Positions 18,553 through 45,481 of a stretch of 64,000 bases of DNA are shown in pieces; within the stretch, counting starts at the first letter, position 1; each line of letters starts with the position of its first letter. The notes beneath the pieces are model-generated. The model saw only the letters and a program-made list of their open reading frames with translations, was not told the DNA's origin and did no database searches. The stretch spans positions 62,001-126,000 of the forward strand of contig JAPOOG010000157.1 in the NCBI GenBank assembly GCA_026713545.1. The letters run 5' to 3'. Source of the stretch: Bryobacterales bacterium. GTDB taxonomy: Bacteria > Acidobacteriota > Terriglobia > Bryobacterales > UBA6623. The translations under genes and the position numbers were made by a program.

Positions 18553-18969
18553 GTGAACGAATACGAGATTCTGGAGCACACGGCCGATATCGGTTTCCGG
18601 GCTTGGGCTCCCTCCCCGGGTGAGCTTTTTCGCAACGCGGCGCGGGCCATGATGGCGATTGCAACAGAGCCGGAAACTCTGAGCGGCCTTGAAGAAAGAG
18701 AACTGGAGACTCGTGGCGTCGACTATCCCGACCTGATGGTCAATTGGCTCAGCGAAGTGCTCTATCTATTCGATACCAACCAATTTGCGGCCCGTGATTT
18801 TCGAGTCGACGACATCGCTGCCGACCGTCTGCGCGCTACGCTGATCGGTGAGCCGCGCGAACCGGAACGGCATCCGTGGGAGCTGATCATCAAGGCAGTC
18901 ACTTATCACCAACTAAAAGTAGAACAGCAGAACAGCCGCTGGAAGGCCGAAGTTTTTTTGGACATATGA
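18553..18969 (+). CDS. Archease
   Basis: A 138-residue archease, the activator that promotes guanylylation and turnover of the RNA ligase RtcB. Family features include the N-terminal EHTADIGFRAWAPS with the metal-binding His-Thr-Ala-Asp, the central DLMVNWLSEVLYLFD and the C-terminal VTYHQLKVEQ. It starts with GTG. It overlaps the rtcB start by ATGA, which agrees well with the known partnership. Confidence 0.93.
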   Translation: MNEYEILEHTADIGFRAWAPSPGELFRNAARAMMAIATEPETLSGLEERELETRGVDYPDLMVNWLSEVLYLFDTNQFAARDFRVDDIAADRLRATLIGEPREPERHPWELIIKAVTYHQLKVEQQNSRWKAEVFLDI

Positions 18970-20408
18970 GCGTTTCGCACCTCATCGAGCAGGTCGACGA
19001 CTACCGCTGGCGTATCCCGCGAGTCAATGGGACTGGCATGCTCACCGACGTTCGCGTCTATGCCAGCCGGGACATTCTCGAGAAGGTCGTCACTGACCGC
19101 TCTCTAGACCAAGCAGCCAACGTGGCCTGCTTGCCGGGGATCGTGGGGTCCAGTCTCGCGATGCCCGACATTCACCAGGGCTACGGCTTCCCGATCGGCG
19201 GTGTCGCGGCCGTCGACTGTGCGAGCGGCGTCGTTTCGCCCGGTGGAGTCGGATTCGATATCAACTGCGGAGTACGCTTATTGGGATCGAGCCTTTGTCG
19301 CGATGAAGTGCGGACCCGTTTGAAGGATCTCATCAATCAGATCTTTCGCGACGTCCCCTGCGGAACCGGCGGCACAGGCTACATCAAGATCAGTCGGAAG
19401 GAACTCGACGACGTGCTCGTGGATGGTGCGCGTTGGATGGTCCGTCATGGCTACGGAGAGAGCAACGATTGGGAGTACGCCGAAGCGCGTGGCGCACTGC
19501 TGGGTGCCGACCCGGACAAGGTATCCCCCCGAGCCAAGGATCGAGGCCGGCCGCAGATTGGTACGCTGGGCAGCGGCAACCACTTTCTGGAGATTCAGTA
19601 CGTCCAGCGTGTGGATGACGAGGAAGCAGCCAAAACGTTCGGCCTGTACCAAGGGCAGGTCGTCGTCCTGATTCATTCCGGCTCGCGTGGTCTCGGTCAC
19701 CAAGTCTGCACGGACTTCCTGCGCGATATGGGTCCGGCGATGCGGAAATACGGTATTGAACTTCCCGACCGCCAGCTCGCCTGCGTGCCGGTGACTTCCA
19801 GCGAAGGCCAAAGCTATCTCGCGGCCATGCGCGGCGCGGCGAACTTTGCCTGGGCAAACCGCCAGGGAATGACGCATTTCGTGCGCCAGGCCTTCCGGCG
19901 CATCTTCGGCAACGCCGTGCATCTCAAAGTGATCTACGATGTCTGCCACAACATTGCAAAGCAGGAGCGATACGAGGTCGCCGGTAAAACACAAGATGTG
20001 CTTGTCCACCGCAAGGGCGCTACACGAGCCTTCCCTCCGGGACATCCCGAAGTGACTCCCTCCTATCAGCAGGTCGGTCAGCCCGTCTTCATCCCCGGCA
20101 GCATGGGGACGGCATCCTGGGTCCTCGCGGGCCGATCAGGGTCCGTCGACGAGACCTTCGGGACGTGCTGCCACGGCGCCGGCAGGCTGCTCAGCCGCAC
20201 CGCTGCGAAAAAGGGACGTGATTTGAAACGAGTCATCAAAGACCTCGAGCGAGAGGGCATCCTCATTCGTAGCGATAGCAAAAGAGGCATCCTCGAAGAG
20301 GTTCCCGAGGCCTACAAAGACGTTGACGAGGTCATTGAAGTCGTGCACAAAGCAGGCCTTGCAAAAAAAGTAGCGCGCCTTCGCCCGATGGGCGTCATCA
20401 AAGGTTGA
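18966..20408 (+). CDS. rtcB: RNA-splicing ligase RtcB
   Basis: A 480-residue GTP- and Mn-dependent ligase that joins 2',3'-cyclic phosphate and 5'-OH RNA ends. Metal and GTP motifs are all present: GGVGFDINCGVRLL, GSGNHFLEIQ, IHSGSRGLGHQVC, IYDVCHNIAKQE, and CCHGAGRLLSR near the histidine that is guanylylated. The ATG at 18966 overlaps the archease stop. In bacteria RtcB serves RNA repair after ribonuclease cleavage, since there are no tRNA introns of the archaeal type to remove. No RtcR-type regulator is adjacent. Confidence 0.96.
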   Translation: MSVSHLIEQVDDYRWRIPRVNGTGMLTDVRVYASRDILEKVVTDRSLDQAANVACLPGIVGSSLAMPDIHQGYGFPIGGVAAVDCASGVVSPGGVGFDINCGVRLLGSSLCRDEVRTRLKDLINQIFRDVPCGTGGTGYIKISRKELDDVLVDGARWMVRHGYGESNDWEYAEARGALLGADPDKVSPRAKDRGRPQIGTLGSGNHFLEIQYVQRVDDEEAAKTFGLYQGQVVVLIHSGSRGLGHQVCTDFLRDMGPAMRKYGIELPDRQLACVPVTSSEGQSYLAAMRGAANFAWANRQGMTHFVRQAFRRIFGNAVHLKVIYDVCHNIAKQERYEVAGKTQDVLVHRKGATRAFPPGHPEVTPSYQQVGQPVFIPGSMGTASWVLAGRSGSVDETFGTCCHGAGRLLSRTAAKKGRDLKRVIKDLEREGILIRSDSKRGILEEVPEAYKDVDEVIEVVHKAGLAKKVARLRPMGVIKG

Positions 20409-23305: not shown

Positions 23306-24580
23306 GTGTTGCTTCCCGGATTCACATACCGAGATCGAAAGCTCCTCTGCGAGGGCGTGCACTTGACCGAAGTGGCTCAACGCTTCGGCACGCCGTGCTA
23401 TGTCTATTCGACGGAAACGATCGCGACGAATTACCGAGCTTACAGGGATGCGCTCGGGCACTTACCGCACGAAGTCCATTACTCGGTGAAGGCGAATGGC
23501 TCGCTCGGCATTTTGTCTCTGTTGGCAAACCTCGGCGCCGGGTTCGACATTGTGTCCGGGGGGGAACTGTTCCGCGTCCTGAAAGCGGGTGGTGATTCGG
23601 CCAAAGTCGTTTTCTCCGGGGTCGGCAAGACAGCGGCTGAACTCGAATACGCGTTGCGTGCAGGCATCGGCTCGTTCAACTGCGAGTCGCAAGAAGAGGT
23701 CGAGCTACTGGACAAAATTGCCGGACAGCTTGAAGCTCGGCCCGTCGTCGCGCTGCGTGTGAACCCGGACATCAGCGCTGAGACACATCCCTATATTGCG
23801 ACAGGTCTGCGGGACCACAAGTTCGGCATCCCTTTCAAGGTGGCCGAGCGCATCTATCGCGATGCAGGGCGTTTTCCCCATCTCCGTTTCGAGAGCATCA
23901 GTTGTCACATCGGCTCGCAGATCTTCGATACCGGTGTGTTTTTCGAGGTGCTCGAAAAGGTGATGGCATTGGTCGATCGGTTGCGCGGCGCGGGAGTCTT
24001 CGTACGTCAACTCGATCTCGGAGGGGGTCTTGGAGTCTCTTACCGTCGCGATGAGAATGCGCCTTCCATCGCCGAATACGCTGCCGGCCTTGCCAACGCT
24101 CTGGAAGGCAAGGATCTGAGGCTGCTGATCGAACCAGGACGTTCGATCGTCGGTCCTGCGGGGATCTTGTTGACGCAGGTGGTCTATCGCAAGATCGCGG
24201 AGTCAAAGGAGTTTATCGTCGTCGACGCAGCGATGAACGATCTGATCCGACCTGCCCTATATCAATCGCATCACGAGATCATTCCTGTTGTTAACCGCAA
24301 CGTGGAAGTGCTTAACGCCGACGTGGTCGGTCCGGTTTGCGAAACAGGTGATTTCCTGGCTCGTGATCGCCGAATGCCTACCGTTGATACTGGCGACTTG
24401 CTGGCGGTTTGCACGGCCGGCGCCTACGGGTTCGTGCAGGCGTCGAACTACAATGCGCGCCCGCGCGCGGCCGAGGTTCTCGTTGAAGGCAGCAAGGCGA
24501 AGCTCATCCGTGAACGGGAGAGTTACGAGGATCTCATCCGTGGCGAGACGATTGACGGTGATTCACAGTCTGCATCGTGA
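23306..24580 (+). CDS. lysA: Diaminopimelate decarboxylase
   Basis: About 424 residues of a fold-type III PLP enzyme that decarboxylates meso-diaminopimelate to lysine. The PLP lysine is in HYSVKANGSLGILSLLA; HIGSQIFDTGVF, LDLGGGLGVSY, EPGRSIVGPAGILL and VGPVCETGDFLARDR are the other conserved stretches, with AGAYGFVQASNYN near the end. The frame continues upstream into the phosphatase gene; the GTG at 23306 (or 23267, overlapping the upstream stop) is the probable start because homology begins at GFTYRDRKLLCEG. The stop overlaps the miaA start as GTGA. Confidence 0.93.
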   Translation: MLLPGFTYRDRKLLCEGVHLTEVAQRFGTPCYVYSTETIATNYRAYRDALGHLPHEVHYSVKANGSLGILSLLANLGAGFDIVSGGELFRVLKAGGDSAKVVFSGVGKTAAELEYALRAGIGSFNCESQEEVELLDKIAGQLEARPVVALRVNPDISAETHPYIATGLRDHKFGIPFKVAERIYRDAGRFPHLRFESISCHIGSQIFDTGVFFEVLEKVMALVDRLRGAGVFVRQLDLGGGLGVSYRRDENAPSIAEYAAGLANALEGKDLRLLIEPGRSIVGPAGILLTQVVYRKIAESKEFIVVDAAMNDLIRPALYQSHHEIIPVVNRNVEVLNADVVGPVCETGDFLARDRRMPTVDTGDLLAVCTAGAYGFVQASNYNARPRAAEVLVEGSKAKLIRERESYEDLIRGETIDGDSQSAS

Positions 24581-40568: not shown

Positions 40569-41411
40569 ATGGCGTTAGCATTCACCAAATGCCAAGCTGC
40601 CGGAAACGACTTTCTCATTGTCCGTTGGAGTGATCTGGATGAACTTGGACTTACTGAAAGCGATCTGCCTGAACTGGCGCGATCGATGTGTGACCGCCGT
40701 CAAGGGGTCGGTGCTGACGGTCTCGAAGTGCTCGGCGCGCCGGGCATCGACCACGGCGATACCGACGCTTCGTTGCGCATCTTCAACTCCGACGGCAGCG
40801 AAGCAGAGATTTCAGGGAACGGAACGCGCTGCGTGGCCGCCGCGTTGCAATACGAAGCTCCATCCGGTGAGTCATTGCGTATCACGACCCGAGCCGGCTT
40901 GAAGGTTCTGCGGCTCATCGAGCGGCGCGGGCGCAAGTTCATCTTCGATATGACGATGGGCACACCGTCCTACGACCTGCGGGACGTGGAGTGCAGGATC
41001 GATACGAGTCTCGGCACTCGTACGGTTACGGTGTTGAATGTGGGTAATCCGCAATGCGTGCTGTTTGTCGAAGATTTCGATTTTGACTGGCGGTCTCTGG
41101 GAAAGATGATCGAGAATCACCTTCACTTTCCGGCTCGGACGAACGTCTCGTTCGTCCGGTTAACCAATGCTCACGAGATCGATGTGAAGTTTTGGGAACG
41201 CGGCGCGGGGGAAACTCTCAGTTCCGGAACCGGATCAACGGGTGCGGCGGTCGCGGCGATTCTCGCCGGCAAGGCATCGAGTCCGGTGCACGTTGTCACG
41301 CCTGCGGGTGACCTGATCGTCACCTGGCACGGCGGAGACGTCACGATCCGCGGACCCGCCGAGATCGTGGTCGTGGGCGGCTACTACGGGTATCCGGTGG
41401 TCAGCCCGTGA
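40569..41411 (+). CDS. dapF: Diaminopimelate epimerase homologue with Ser at both catalytic Cys positions
   Basis: A 281-residue DapF-type protein. Family landmarks include FTKCQAAGNDFLIV, CDRRQGVGADGLEVL, FNSDGSEAEISGNGTRC, LNVGNPQCVLFVE and the C-terminal WERGAGETLSSGTGST. In characterised DapF enzymes two cysteines (Cys73 and Cys217 in E. coli) act as the acid/base pair, in CGNGARC and ACGSGAC. Here both positions are serine: codon TCA at 40812-40814 and TCC at 41223-41225. This could mean altered chemistry, a different substrate, or a lineage-wide change. The start at 40569 is preferred over 40494. The gene is separate from lysA. Confidence 0.85.
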   Translation: MALAFTKCQAAGNDFLIVRWSDLDELGLTESDLPELARSMCDRRQGVGADGLEVLGAPGIDHGDTDASLRIFNSDGSEAEISGNGTRCVAAALQYEAPSGESLRITTRAGLKVLRLIERRGRKFIFDMTMGTPSYDLRDVECRIDTSLGTRTVTVLNVGNPQCVLFVEDFDFDWRSLGKMIENHLHFPARTNVSFVRLTNAHEIDVKFWERGAGETLSSGTGSTGAAVAAILAGKASSPVHVVTPAGDLIVTWHGGDVTIRGPAEIVVVGGYYGYPVVSP

Positions 41412-41598: not shown

Positions 41599-42600
41599 TT
41601 GGCAGAGATGTGGAGGCGGGTGCGCTATGGTAGGTTTGTCGTGCACTTCCCCTCTCTACGCACCGTCGCATCCCTAGCGTTGACGCTGCTTTTGGCCGGT
41701 TGCTCGATCAAGAAGTATGCGATCAACTCTGTGGGTGATGCTCTCGCGGAAGGCAACTCGGTTTACGAGACGGACGAGGATATCGAACTCGTCGGCGAAG
41801 CCTTGCCTTTCGGCCTGAAGCTCGTCGAGAGCCTGCTGCAGGAGTCACCCAACCATCGCGGGTTGCTGCTGACGGCGACACGCGGGTTCGTGCTGTACTC
41901 CTACGCCTACGTGGACTATCCGGCGCAAGTCGCGGCGGACGAGGACATCGGGAAAGCTCGCAAGCTACGTACGCGCGCCCACAAGCTCTACATGCGTGCT
42001 CTCGGTTACGGCTTGCGGGGAATGGAGACTTCCTATCCGGGACTGGGGACGCGGCTCACAGCGGATCCTGCAGCCGCGGTCAGTGTGATCCAGAACAGCA
42101 AGAAGAAGCAGCAGGACTTGCCCTTTCTCTATTGGACGGCGGCGGCGCTCGGATCGGCGATTTCGGTGTCCAAGAATGATGCAGCTATGCTCGCGCGCAT
42201 CCCGGAAGTAGAGGCGATGATAGACCGGGCGCTCGAACTGGACGAGACATGGGACAACGGCTCCCTCCATGAGTTCCAGGTCACGTTGGCCGCCGCCAAG
42301 CCGGAAACCCCGGATGAAGCAACCGTCCGTCAACACTTCGAGCGGGCGCTCGCACTGTCCGAAGGCCGCCGGGGCGGGCTCTACGTTGCGCTCGCACAGG
42401 CTGTGTCGATCCCGTATCAGAAGCGCTCGGAATTCACGGCGCTCCTCAACAAGGCGTTGGCCATCGACCCGGACGAGAACGAGGAATACCGCCTCGTGAA
42501 TCTGCTTGCGCAACGGCAAGCACGGCGGCTGCTCTCGCAGACAGATGAGCTATTCTTTGAAGAAGAAGGCTCCGCCGACTCCTCAGTAGACAGCCCCTGA
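41599..42600 (+). CDS. TatT-type TRAP-associated TPR lipoprotein
   Basis: About 333 residues with a lipobox LTLLLAGCSIKKYAIN. The body matches the TatT family (TRAP transporter-associated TPR protein, known from TP0956 of Treponema pallidum), with tetratricopeptide-like helices such as FGLKLVESLLQESPNHRGLL, ARKLRTRAHKLYMRALGYGL and EFTALLNKALAIDPDENEEY. TatT proteins form a complex with the TRAP substrate-binding protein, which is encoded by the very next gene. The start is uncertain: GTG at 41641 gives a shorter leader. It overlaps dctP by one base (TGATG). Confidence 0.9.
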   Translation: MAEMWRRVRYGRFVVHFPSLRTVASLALTLLLAGCSIKKYAINSVGDALAEGNSVYETDEDIELVGEALPFGLKLVESLLQESPNHRGLLLTATRGFVLYSYAYVDYPAQVAADEDIGKARKLRTRAHKLYMRALGYGLRGMETSYPGLGTRLTADPAAAVSVIQNSKKKQQDLPFLYWTAAALGSAISVSKNDAAMLARIPEVEAMIDRALELDETWDNGSLHEFQVTLAAAKPETPDEATVRQHFERALALSEGRRGGLYVALAQAVSIPYQKRSEFTALLNKALAIDPDENEEYRLVNLLAQRQARRLLSQTDELFFEEEGSADSSVDSP

Positions 42601-43619
42601 TGGCCCACGTCACGCGCCGCTCTCTCGTCCGGCTGCCGCTCTATTTCACAGCCGGCTCCCTCACGACTCTCTTCGGACAGAGCGTACTCATCAAGCTCGG
42701 CACAGGCGCGCCGAAGGGATCGAGCTGGCATGACGCCCTCAACCAGATGAAGCAGGATTGGGCGCGCGTCTCCAACGGCGCCATCAGGGTGAACATCTAT
42801 GCCGGTGGGGTCGCTGGCGACGATACCGAGCTGGTCCGCAAGATCCAGAGGCGAGGTTTGGACGCGATCGGCATTTCGGGCCTCGGCTTGTCGCGGATCG
42901 AGCCGGGCGTCAACTGCCTGAACATCCCGATGATGGTCGAATCCTACGAAGAGTTCGATCACATCCGCGAGAAGGTGACACCGCTCATCGAGAAACGCAT
43001 CGAGAGCAAGGGCTTCCGCATTCTCAACTGGACGGATATCGGTTGGGTGCATTTCTTCACGAAGACTCCGGCGAAGACATTGGATGACATCCGCCAGCTC
43101 AAACTGTGGATTTCGACCGGAGACCCCAATACAGAGAAACTATATAAGCAGTTAGGATTCCGCGTCGTGCCCTTGCCCGTTACGGACGTTCTGACCTCCC
43201 TGCAGACCGGCCTGATCGAAGCTTTTCAGGCGCCTCCGCTGTTCGCGATGCTGGAGCGATCCTTCGAAGCCGTGAACAACATGATCGACATGCGCTGGGC
43301 TCCGCTAGTGGGCGCGACGATTATCAGCGACCGAGCGTGGCAACGAATTCCCGAGGACATCCGACCGCAAATGCTGACATCCGCGAGTAAGGCGGGGGAT
43401 CAGATGCGGGACGAAATCCGCTCCCTGGACCGCGATGCCATCGTGCAGATGAAGCAGCGCGGTCTCAACGTTATCGAACCCGACGCGGCAACGCTGGCGG
43501 ACTGGCGGCGGCAAGCCGAGGATGCCTATCCCACTTTACGCGGTACGATGGTGCCCGAAGATCTCTTCGATGAGGTCAAGCGCCACCGAGATGCCTACCG
43601 CGCCAGCAAATCCTCATAG
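42600..43619 (+). CDS. TRAP transporter substrate-binding protein (DctP family)
   Basis: A 339-residue periplasmic receptor. The N-terminus TRRSLVRLPLYFTAG resembles an export signal with paired arginines. The mature part has the DctP fold (IKLGTGAPKGSSWHDALNQM, GLDAIGISGLGLSRIEPG, GWVHFFTKTPAKTLDDIRQL, LKLWISTGDPNTEKLYKQLG). The substrate is not readable; DctP proteins bind small carboxylates, while the TatT-partnered ones may bind larger hydrophobic ligands. It is encoded between the TatT gene and the fused permease gene. Confidence 0.92.
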   Translation: MAHVTRRSLVRLPLYFTAGSLTTLFGQSVLIKLGTGAPKGSSWHDALNQMKQDWARVSNGAIRVNIYAGGVAGDDTELVRKIQRRGLDAIGISGLGLSRIEPGVNCLNIPMMVESYEEFDHIREKVTPLIEKRIESKGFRILNWTDIGWVHFFTKTPAKTLDDIRQLKLWISTGDPNTEKLYKQLGFRVVPLPVTDVLTSLQTGLIEAFQAPPLFAMLERSFEAVNNMIDMRWAPLVGATIISDRAWQRIPEDIRPQMLTSASKAGDQMRDEIRSLDRDAIVQMKQRGLNVIEPDAATLADWRRQAEDAYPTLRGTMVPEDLFDEVKRHRDAYRASKSS

Positions 43620-43666
43620 CCGACAAAACCAAGGACGGTTCGGATCGCACCGGCCTCTGACACCTG

Positions 43667-45481
43667 ATGTCTGAATCGTCCGAACCGAAAGGTTTGTCCG
43701 TACGCATCGAAGACGCGCTCTCGATTGCGGTGTTGACGCTGATGTCGGCGCTGCCTCTGATGGAGATTGCGGCGCGGAAGTGGTTGGGCGGTGGGATCCC
43801 CGGCTCGTTCCCCATCGTTCAACACCTCACTCTTTGGATCACATTCCTGGGCGCCGCACTGGCGGCGAGGTCCAACCGGCTGCTCGCTCTGTCGACAGCG
43901 ACGTTTCTTCCGAAGCATCTGCGCAGCCGTATACAACTCTTCACTTCGGCTCTGGCCGTCGGGGTTACCGGCTCTTTGATCTGGGCCGGAACGGACCTGG
44001 TAAGCGTTGACTTCGAGTTCGGCGGCCAAGTGGCGTGGGGCATACCGGTATGGGTGGCCGAGTGCATCATTCCGTTGGGATTCGCGGCGATTGCGGGGAG
44101 GCTGATCTACCGCGGGGCCTCGACGATCACCGGCCGCCTCTTGATTGCCCCGGGTCTGCTGATACCGCTTGCATTCGGCGTGATCGAGAACCCCCACGAG
44201 ACCGGCCTGGTGCTGCCGGCGAGCGTTGTCATCATCGTGGGCACGGCGTTGGGTCTGCCGATCTATTGCGCGCTCGGGGGCGCAGCCGCGCTGCTGTTCT
44301 GGGAAGAGGGCACACCCATCTCCGCCGTGCCCGGAGAGACTTATCGGCTGAGCACATCCCCGATGCTGCCTGCGATCCCGTTGTTTACGCTGGGGGGCTA
44401 CATCCTTGCCGAGGGGGGATCCGGCAAGCGGTTGATGCGCCTGTTCGAGGCATGGGTGGGGTGGCTGCCCGGTGGACTGGCGATCGTGGTTACCGTCGTT
44501 CTCGCTTTTTTTACACCGCTGACGGGCGCATCGGGCATCACCATCTTGTCGATGGGCGGGCTCTTGCTACCCATGATGGTGAAAGCGCAGTATCCGGAAC
44601 GCACATCCGTCGGATTGGTGACGGTGTCGGGGTCTATCGGGCTGCTTTTTCCGCCGAGCCTGCCGGTGATACTGTACGCGTTCTATGCCGAGCAGCCTAT
44701 CGAGAGGCTCTTTGTCGGTGGGCTACTACCGGGGTTTGTGTTGGTGCTTGCGGTGGCGAGTTGGGCAGCCTGGCGTGGCTGGTCGTCGGGGGCCGATCAG
44801 AAACCTTTCCGTATCCGTGAGGCGATGTCGGCGCTCTGGGAGGCGAAGTGGGAGATCCTGCTGCCGATCGTAGTGCTCAGCGGGATCTTCGGTGGCTACG
44901 CCACGCTCGTCGAGGCGGCAGCGATCACCGTGCTGTACGCGTTCGTCGTGGAATGCTTTGTCTTCAAGGACCTGAGCGTTTTCCGCGACTTGCCGCGGGT
45001 CTTCGTGGAGAGCGCCACGCTGGTCGGCGGATTCATGATCATCCTCGGTGTGGCGCTGGGGTTTACGAACTATCTCGTGATCGCCGAAGTTCCGTCGCAA
45101 GCGTTGGAATGGGTGCAGACGCACATCAGCTCGAAAATCCTGTTCCTTCTGGCATTGAATGTCTTCCTGATCATGGTCGGAGCGCTGATGGATATCTATT
45201 CGGCGATTCTGGTGATCGTGCCGCTGATCACGCCGATGGCCGTGGCCTATGGGATCGACCCAGTCCACCTGGGAATCATTTTCCTGGCGAACATGGAGCT
45301 GGGATATCTGATGCCACCGATGGGGGAGAACCTTTTCCTGTCGTCCTATCGCTTCGATCAGCCGCTTACGAGCATCTACCGAGCGACCCTGCCATATGCG
45401 GCGATCTTGCTGGTCGTGGTACTTCTCATCACGTATGTTCCTTCTCTCACGCTTTGGCTGGTGAGGTTAGCTGATGTATAG
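43667..45481 (+). CDS. Fused DctQ-DctM TRAP permease
   Basis: A 604-residue membrane protein. Residues about 15-155 correspond to the small subunit DctQ (four helices, MEIAARKWLGGGIPGSFPIV, LWITFLGAALAARSNRL), and the remainder to the large DctM subunit with GLPIYCALGGAAALLF, GASGITILSMGGLLLP, LFPPSLPVILYAF and LEWVQTHISSKILFLLALNVFL. The two subunits are usually separate; fusion is known in several TRAP lineages. It completes the TatT-DctP-permease cassette, a sodium-coupled importer. It follows dctP by 47 bases. Confidence 0.92.
   Translation: MSESSEPKGLSVRIEDALSIAVLTLMSALPLMEIAARKWLGGGIPGSFPIVQHLTLWITFLGAALAARSNRLLALSTATFLPKHLRSRIQLFTSALAVGVTGSLIWAGTDLVSVDFEFGGQVAWGIPVWVAECIIPLGFAAIAGRLIYRGASTITGRLLIAPGLLIPLAFGVIENPHETGLVLPASVVIIVGTALGLPIYCALGGAAALLFWEEGTPISAVPGETYRLSTSPMLPAIPLFTLGGYILAEGGSGKRLMRLFEAWVGWLPGGLAIVVTVVLAFFTPLTGASGITILSMGGLLLPMMVKAQYPERTSVGLVTVSGSIGLLFPPSLPVILYAFYAEQPIERLFVGGLLPGFVLVLAVASWAAWRGWSSGADQKPFRIREAMSALWEAKWEILLPIVVLSGIFGGYATLVEAAAITVLYAFVVECFVFKDLSVFRDLPRVFVESATLVGGFMIILGVALGFTNYLVIAEVPSQALEWVQTHISSKILFLLALNVFLIMVGALMDIYSAILVIVPLITPMAVAYGIDPVHLGIIFLANMELGYLMPPMGENLFLSSYRFDQPLTSIYRATLPYAAILLVVVLLITYVPSLTLWLVRLADV

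Follow-up and report, generated by a model that had tools for sequence, protein, structure and literature searches.

A Ser/Ser variant of the diaminopimelate epimerase DapF in Acidobacteriota: active site, distribution and probable function

Diaminopimelate (DAP) epimerase, DapF, is the standard case of an enzyme in which a weak thiolate (pKa about 8.5) abstracts a proton whose pKa is about 29; the thiol pair, at which aziridine inhibitors are aimed, is held to be the heart of the mechanism. In the accepted mechanism this pair consists of a thiol and a thiolate with pKa values of 6.5 and 8.5; in DapF from Anabaena the residues alkylated by aziDAP (LL- and DL-aziDAP) are Cys75 and Cys224, and the catalytic cysteines lie at helix N-termini (PMC12039745). 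In DapF from C. glutamicum (CgDapF) the Cys pair forms a reversible disulfide on oxidation, and the alanine mutants of N15, N74, N85, N159, N194, E212, R213 and T223 are nearly dead (PMC5296763). His159 has been named as catalytic in DapF from H. influenzae (1BWZ; PMC3581254). The biochemically characterised relatives that we found carry a Cys pair in each case.

Serine is known at one of the two positions elsewhere in the superfamily. The 4-hydroxyproline 2-epimerase of proline racemase superfamily cluster 9 (e.g. B9JQV3) is active with a Ser/Cys pair, whereas the trans-3-hydroxyproline dehydratase t3HypD (B9K4G4), with Ser90/Thr256, is not a two-base epimerase (PMC4113996). Serine has also been engineered singly into the catalytic positions, in H. 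influenzae DapF (C73S, 2q9h; C217S, 2q9j) and in histidine racemase (HisR C67S and C209S), and the HisR single mutants are greatly impaired (PMC11602996). In the open-access literature we found no description of a Ser/Ser DapF, although subscription journals and database notes may hold one. Here, we describe a DapF homologue with serine at both positions, encoded in a 64,000-nucleotide stretch of a Bryobacterales genome (hereafter the window, meaning the whole stretch that was analysed), together with its relatives across the Acidobacteriota.

The window protein and its active site

Translation of the gene on the forward strand (Table 1) gives a 280-residue product in which EAEISGNGTRCV and WERGAGETLSSGTGSTGA are present, with EISGNGTRC at the first catalytic site and WERGAGETLSSGTGST at the second. 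The product matches TIGR00652 (DapF) with 200.2 bits against a cut-off of 114.65, over model positions 2–268 of 270, and PF01678 with 145.7 bits against a Pfam cut-off of 34.7, and it has the motifs GNDF, GVGADG, NSDGS, GNG, GNP and ERG in common with Cys/Cys DapF. In phmmer alignments Ser82 and Ser219 fall on the Cys columns of the Anabaena (9mro, C75/C224), Arabidopsis and B. anthracis enzymes, and the catalytic cysteines of Haemophilus DapF likewise occupy these positions. The original prediction of serine at both catalytic cysteine positions is thus borne out, in coordinates and motifs, by the translation and by alignment to solved DapFs, and no other cysteine aligns to a catalytic position. 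Because the protein is homologous to DapF and keeps its substrate site, but has Ser82 and Ser219 in place of the two cysteines that define DapF catalysis (C73 and C217 in E. coli), we refer to it as a Ser/Ser variant of DapF and not as an ordinary member.

Table 1. Positions in the window of the dapF-like gene, its active-site codons and other genes discussed in the text
Feature	Position	Strand	Remark
lysA, meso-DAP decarboxylase	23330..24547	+	TIGR01048, 496.6 bits (G000:C22:85330-86547); PF02784/PF00278
dapF-like CDS, Ser/Ser variant of diaminopimelate epimerase	40569..41411	+	280 aa; TIGR00652, PF01678, AF2 fold
Asn13	40605..40607	+	CgDapF N15, required for activity there
Asn73	40785..40787	+	CgDapF N74, distal DAP carboxylate
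Ser82 codon TCA	40812..40814	+	catalytic Cys73 (E. coli), Cys75 (Anabaena); directly N-terminal of helix 83-96
Asn160	41046..41048	+	CgDapF N159, distal DAP carboxylate; 103/103 in unselected Ser/Ser set
Gln162 codon CAA	41052..41054	+	His159 position (GNPH motif) of Cys-type DapF
Asn192	41142..41144	+	CgDapF N194, distal DAP carboxylate
Glu210-Arg211	41196..41201	+	CgDapF E212-R213 (DAP amino groups, distal carboxylate); kept 148/148 and 147/148
Ser219 codon TCC	41223..41225	+	catalytic Cys217 (E. coli), Cys224 (Anabaena); directly N-terminal of helix 220-232
TAtT-DctP-DctQM TRAP transporter operon	41599-45481	+	starts about 190 bases downstream of dapF; uninformative on function

Cysteines elsewhere in the window protein were considered as substitute catalytic residues and rejected: C88 also occurs in Cys-type DapF and is absent from 22 of 148 Ser/Ser sequences, C41 is common to Cys-type enzymes and non-catalytic there, and the columns of C163 and C224 vary among Ser/Ser sequences.

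The eight residues required in CgDapF correspond, in the order given above, to N13, N73, N84, N160, N192, E210, R211 and T221, and all residues of the distal DAP recognition site are conserved. These eight positions are near-invariant across the Ser/Ser clade, reading NNNNNERT in most of the Ser/Ser sequences listed, with the exception of some paralogues of family f25, in which N84 is replaced by D, and of some sequences with Ser for T221; Asp75 is near-invariant as well, as is Glu210. The His159 position is held by His in 79 of the 86 Cys/Cys rows; the exceptions are seven divergent proteins that also lack Asn73. Among the 140 Ser/Ser rows it is Gln in 73, His in 57, Val in 6, Asn in 3 and Phe in 1.

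In the AlphaFold2 model of the window protein (pLDDT 93), which has the DapF fold, helices 83-96 and 220-232 begin directly after Ser82 and Ser219, so that each serine sits at the N-terminal end of one of the central helices. Its top fold matches are ligand-bound DAP epimerases (9mro, Z 35.6; 3ejx, Z 34.8), with 5m47 at Z 32.7; O-ureidoserine racemase (7vdy) matches with Z 34.7. Proline racemase (ProR) and 4-hydroxyproline epimerase are less similar to it than DapF is, with identities of 11–18% and Z scores of about 23–27, compared with 26–37% and mostly 28–36 for DapF.

Relative to Cys/Cys DapF (Anabaena 9mro, Arabidopsis 3ejx, H. influenzae 1bwz, C. glutamicum 5m47; TIGR00652), the window protein has the same fold, size, DAP-binding residues and, probably, place in the pathway, but Ser for both catalytic cysteines and Gln for His159, and the disulfide redox switch of CgDapF is impossible in it. 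It shares the superfold and one serine with the B9JQV3-type epimerase, whose other residue is Cys and whose substrate is hydroxyproline; the Ser/Thr dehydratase likewise has no Cys in its pair but differs in its substrate site. Unlike the engineered single mutants, the two serines of the window protein are natural and conserved.

Distribution, selection and ancestry of the Ser/Ser pair

The rows of a phylum-wide survey, which include a few reference proteins, loci from another phylum and further loci from genomes already represented, comprised 155 Ser/Ser, 90 Cys/Cys, four Cys/Ser and two Ser/Cys. The Ser/Ser type was present in 48 of the 83 acidobacterial families with a sequence read, and the Bryobacterales relatives that were read were Ser/Ser without exception. 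Both serines are found in each of 148 distinct Ser/Ser-type sequences, a set selected as Ser/Ser with Asn160, so that the invariance of these three residues in it holds by construction. Independently of this selection, within the Ser/Ser clade of a 150-row tree no residue but Ser was read at any catalytic position. The pair is accordingly not the anomaly of one gene that had been supposed, but the fixed state of a clade with members in 48 acidobacterial families. In Vulcanimicrobiota, the only phylum surveyed beyond Acidobacteriota, 31 of the 32 genomes read were Cys/Cys and one Ser/Cys.

Codon usage at the two sites was tabulated for the 148 sequences. Ser82 is encoded by TCC (67), TCG (38), AGC (19), TCA (14) and TCT (10), and Ser219 by TCG (64), TCC (49), TCA (18), TCT (11), AGC (5) and AGT (1). 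Since switching between TCN and AGY has occurred with serine kept, serine itself is under selection, and the diversity of six codons across independent genomes excludes sequencing error, recoding or artefact. This also disposes of the concern that the raw reads might encode Cys: in relatives that were assembled independently, both positions are Ser and are written with codons of the TCN and AGY types. The dN/dS values were 0.03–0.25 for Ser/Ser pairs from other genera and 0.04–0.21 for Cys/Cys pairs; purifying selection acts in the Ser/Ser clade. For the window dapF and its nearest relative (L033), dN/dS was 0.54–0.59 (bootstrap 0.31–1.11), a figure underlain by few substitutions, and ten genes near it gave 0.04–0.42, below the value for the window dapF.

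Trees were built with the two catalytic columns masked. In the 150-row tree, the Asn160-type Ser/Ser rows formed one clade of 85 rows (SH-aLRT 97; one row is incomplete at the first site), which lay next to the Cys/Cys enzymes of plants, cyanobacteria, Bacillus and an archaeon; in a slower 59-row tree the main Ser/Ser clade had support of 99/99. A small divergent group (L079, L082, L088 and L168) was placed uncertainly among the Cys rows of the latter tree and may for this reason be either an additional origin of the pair or a branch that was wrongly placed. L187 (G120, family f6, 1492-2250, + strand), with Phe at the His159 position and one genome read, is a Ser/Ser protein inside the Val160-type acidobacterial DapF, set apart from the main clade by well-supported branches, and four Cys/Ser proteins share its part of the tree. 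By tree placement, the Ser/Ser pair of L187 arose separately from that of the main clade.

Mixed pairs and additional copies were also observed. The natural Ser/Cys DapF (L049 / L136) belongs to the Vulcanimicrobiota genome G513, whose relatives are otherwise Cys/Cys, and the natural Cys/Ser DapFs, in which the first Cys is kept and the second is Ser (L094, L175, L189 and L200), come from four acidobacterial families. A Ser/Ser copy and a Cys-type relative coexist in some genomes (G469, G179 and G466). Genomes of family f25 (loci L218, L220, L221, L224, L168, L169 and L268-L275) encode a divergent Cys/Cys DapF-like protein with Asn73 changed to Asp, and several of them have an extra Ser/Ser paralogue, in some cases with SGDG for SGNG.

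Routes to meso-DAP and gene neighbourhood

The source genome (5.6 Mb, 99.2% complete) contains one DAP_epimerase gene, that of the window, its two Pfam hits being the two halves of this gene. The original prediction had suggested a search of the genome for a second, Cys-type DapF or a DAP dehydrogenase (Ddh). No Cys-type DapF was found in this genome, leaving the window gene as its sole DapF, and Ddh (TIGR01921) was over its curated cut-off in none of 61 Bryobacterales genomes, the source genome included, and in none of 68 Ser/Ser genomes of other families, 129 genomes in all, with positive controls in both searches; the weak Ddh matches were short N-terminal stretches of 19–30 bits, under the cut-off. 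DapL (TIGR03542) was below cut-off in the source genome. The lysA gene lies in the window, as had been stated, and LysA was over cut-off in 40 of 41 genomes. The source genome also encodes DapB and a MurE with the DNPR motif, which we take to be the mark of a DAP-type enzyme.

In genomes of family f4, which belongs to the same class and is presumably Acidobacteriaceae, an LD-carboxypeptidase gene (ldcA) comes after the Ser/Ser dapF, and after it mpl, which encodes the ligase for L-Ala-gamma-D-Glu-meso-DAP. This order was seen in L239 and L240, and in L238 mpl is close by. The mpl product is over its cut-off; the LD-carboxypeptidase is a Pfam S66 protein with a weak match, under cut-off, to muramoyltetrapeptide carboxypeptidase. 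Its position beside ldcA and mpl ties the f4 gene to the recycling of meso-DAP murein. Outside Acidobacteriaceae-type genomes, the neighbours of Ser/Ser dapF formed no consistent pathway; upstream of the window dapF is a rhodanese gene, which is uninformative on function.

Proposed function and alternatives

We consider it likely that the window protein is a functional LL-/meso-DAP epimerase with the DapF fold, in which Ser82 and Ser219 replace Cys/Cys as the acid/base pair. The usual substrate is favoured because the DAP residues are kept, the protein is the sole DapF, no Ddh passed its cut-off, LysA and MurE need DAP, and the neighbours in f4 genomes belong to murein recycling. The Ser/Cys 4-hydroxyproline epimerase, active within the shared superfold, gives the proposed chemistry a partial precedent (PMC4113996). 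Where the original prediction left a choice between unexpected chemistry and a different substrate, the former is thus preferred, acting on the usual substrate, and the latter appears unlikely. An essential enzyme of lysine and cell-wall synthesis in much of the Acidobacteriota would then probably work by chemistry that textbooks assign to thiols. We also lean towards the broader view that this phylum has an essential, cofactor-independent and thiol-free epimerase that uses a Ser/Ser pair for two-base proton transfer at the alpha-carbon, with at least two origins in the DapF family and with Cys/Ser and Ser/Cys forms in nearby lineages.

In the mechanism that we propose, the domains would close around LL-DAP, with N73, N160, N192 and R211 holding the distal end of the substrate and N84/G83, G220/T221 and E210 the proximal end. 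Ser82, the counterpart of the Cys alkylated by LL-aziDAP, would remove the alpha-proton, and Ser219 would donate a proton from the opposite face; with meso-DAP as the substrate these roles would be swapped. Serine cannot supply a pKa pair like that of the thiols without strong activation, and the serine oxygen may be activated by desolvation on domain closure, by the helix N-terminus and by backbone NH groups. The His159 partner may now be dispensable, its position having drifted to Gln in the window protein. Escape from disulfide oxidation is a possible reason for the change from Cys to Ser. Against a Ser/Ser epimerase we count the impairment of the HisR mutants, the thiol pair of low pKa that the accepted mechanism calls for (PMC12039745), the genomes with an added Cys-type relative, the dN/dS of the window gene and the dehydratase function of the Ser/Thr relative.

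A DapF-fold epimerase or racemase could instead act on another substrate, such as a diamino acid, a murein peptide or lanthionine, with meso-DAP supplied by an unrecognised enzyme. Precedents are histidine racemase, which was first annotated as DapF (PMC11602996), O-ureidoserine racemase (7vdy), and the plant and cyanobacterial DapFs near the Ser/Ser clade, which also epimerise lanthionine (PMC12039745). We regard this as unlikely, however, given the conserved distal DAP site, the single DapF, the lack of a Ddh over cut-off, the presence of LysA, DapB and DNPR-type MurE, and the ldcA-mpl neighbours in Acidobacteriaceae-type genomes, whose products handle meso-DAP peptides. The same retained DAP-site residues, together with the want of a second DapF to make meso-DAP and a neighbourhood that gives no such hint, make it highly improbable that this DapF descendant has become a dehydratase or lyase in which the serines give elimination and not 1,1-proton transfer, even though t3HypD offers a model for such a change and glutamate racemase retains elimination from chloroglutamate after Cys-to-Ser mutation (PMC8142540).

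It is very unlikely that the protein is a DAP epimerase with a non-serine acid/base, for instance Glu210 or another residue that works by way of the serines. In favour of this reading, Glu210 and Asp75 are near-invariant and Glu208 has been named as catalytic in 1BWZ (PMC3581254); against it, the serines are conserved as well as Glu210, the codon switching shows selection for Ser, and the site has no basic residue that is peculiar to the Ser clade. It is barely credible that the gene is inactive or in decay, or that the serines stem from faulty assembly or base calling, despite the raised dN/dS between the window gene and its nearest relative, as the frame is open, the same residues recur in the 148 distinct sequences of independent genomes with six Ser codons, and dN/dS is low in the other Ser/Ser pairs. 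In the open-access literature we found no measured DAP isomer for Ser/Ser bacteria.

If the Ser/Ser protein is the DAP epimerase, a natural and conserved pair would show that the thiol is dispensable, and natural Cys/Cys, Cys/Ser, Ser/Cys and Ser/Ser enzymes could be compared for how a closed site lowers the barrier. One of the commonest soil phyla would make its lysine and cell wall with such an enzyme, which oxidation and thiol-directed inhibitors would not be expected to inactivate, and a check of catalytic residues would wrongly score it as inactive.

Elsewhere in the window, positions 18876-20405 (+ strand) encode an RtcB-family protein of 510 residues, whose best match, to the C-terminal part of NF038162 (intein-containing RtcB-related), scores 705.7 bits, below the cut-off of 1150.
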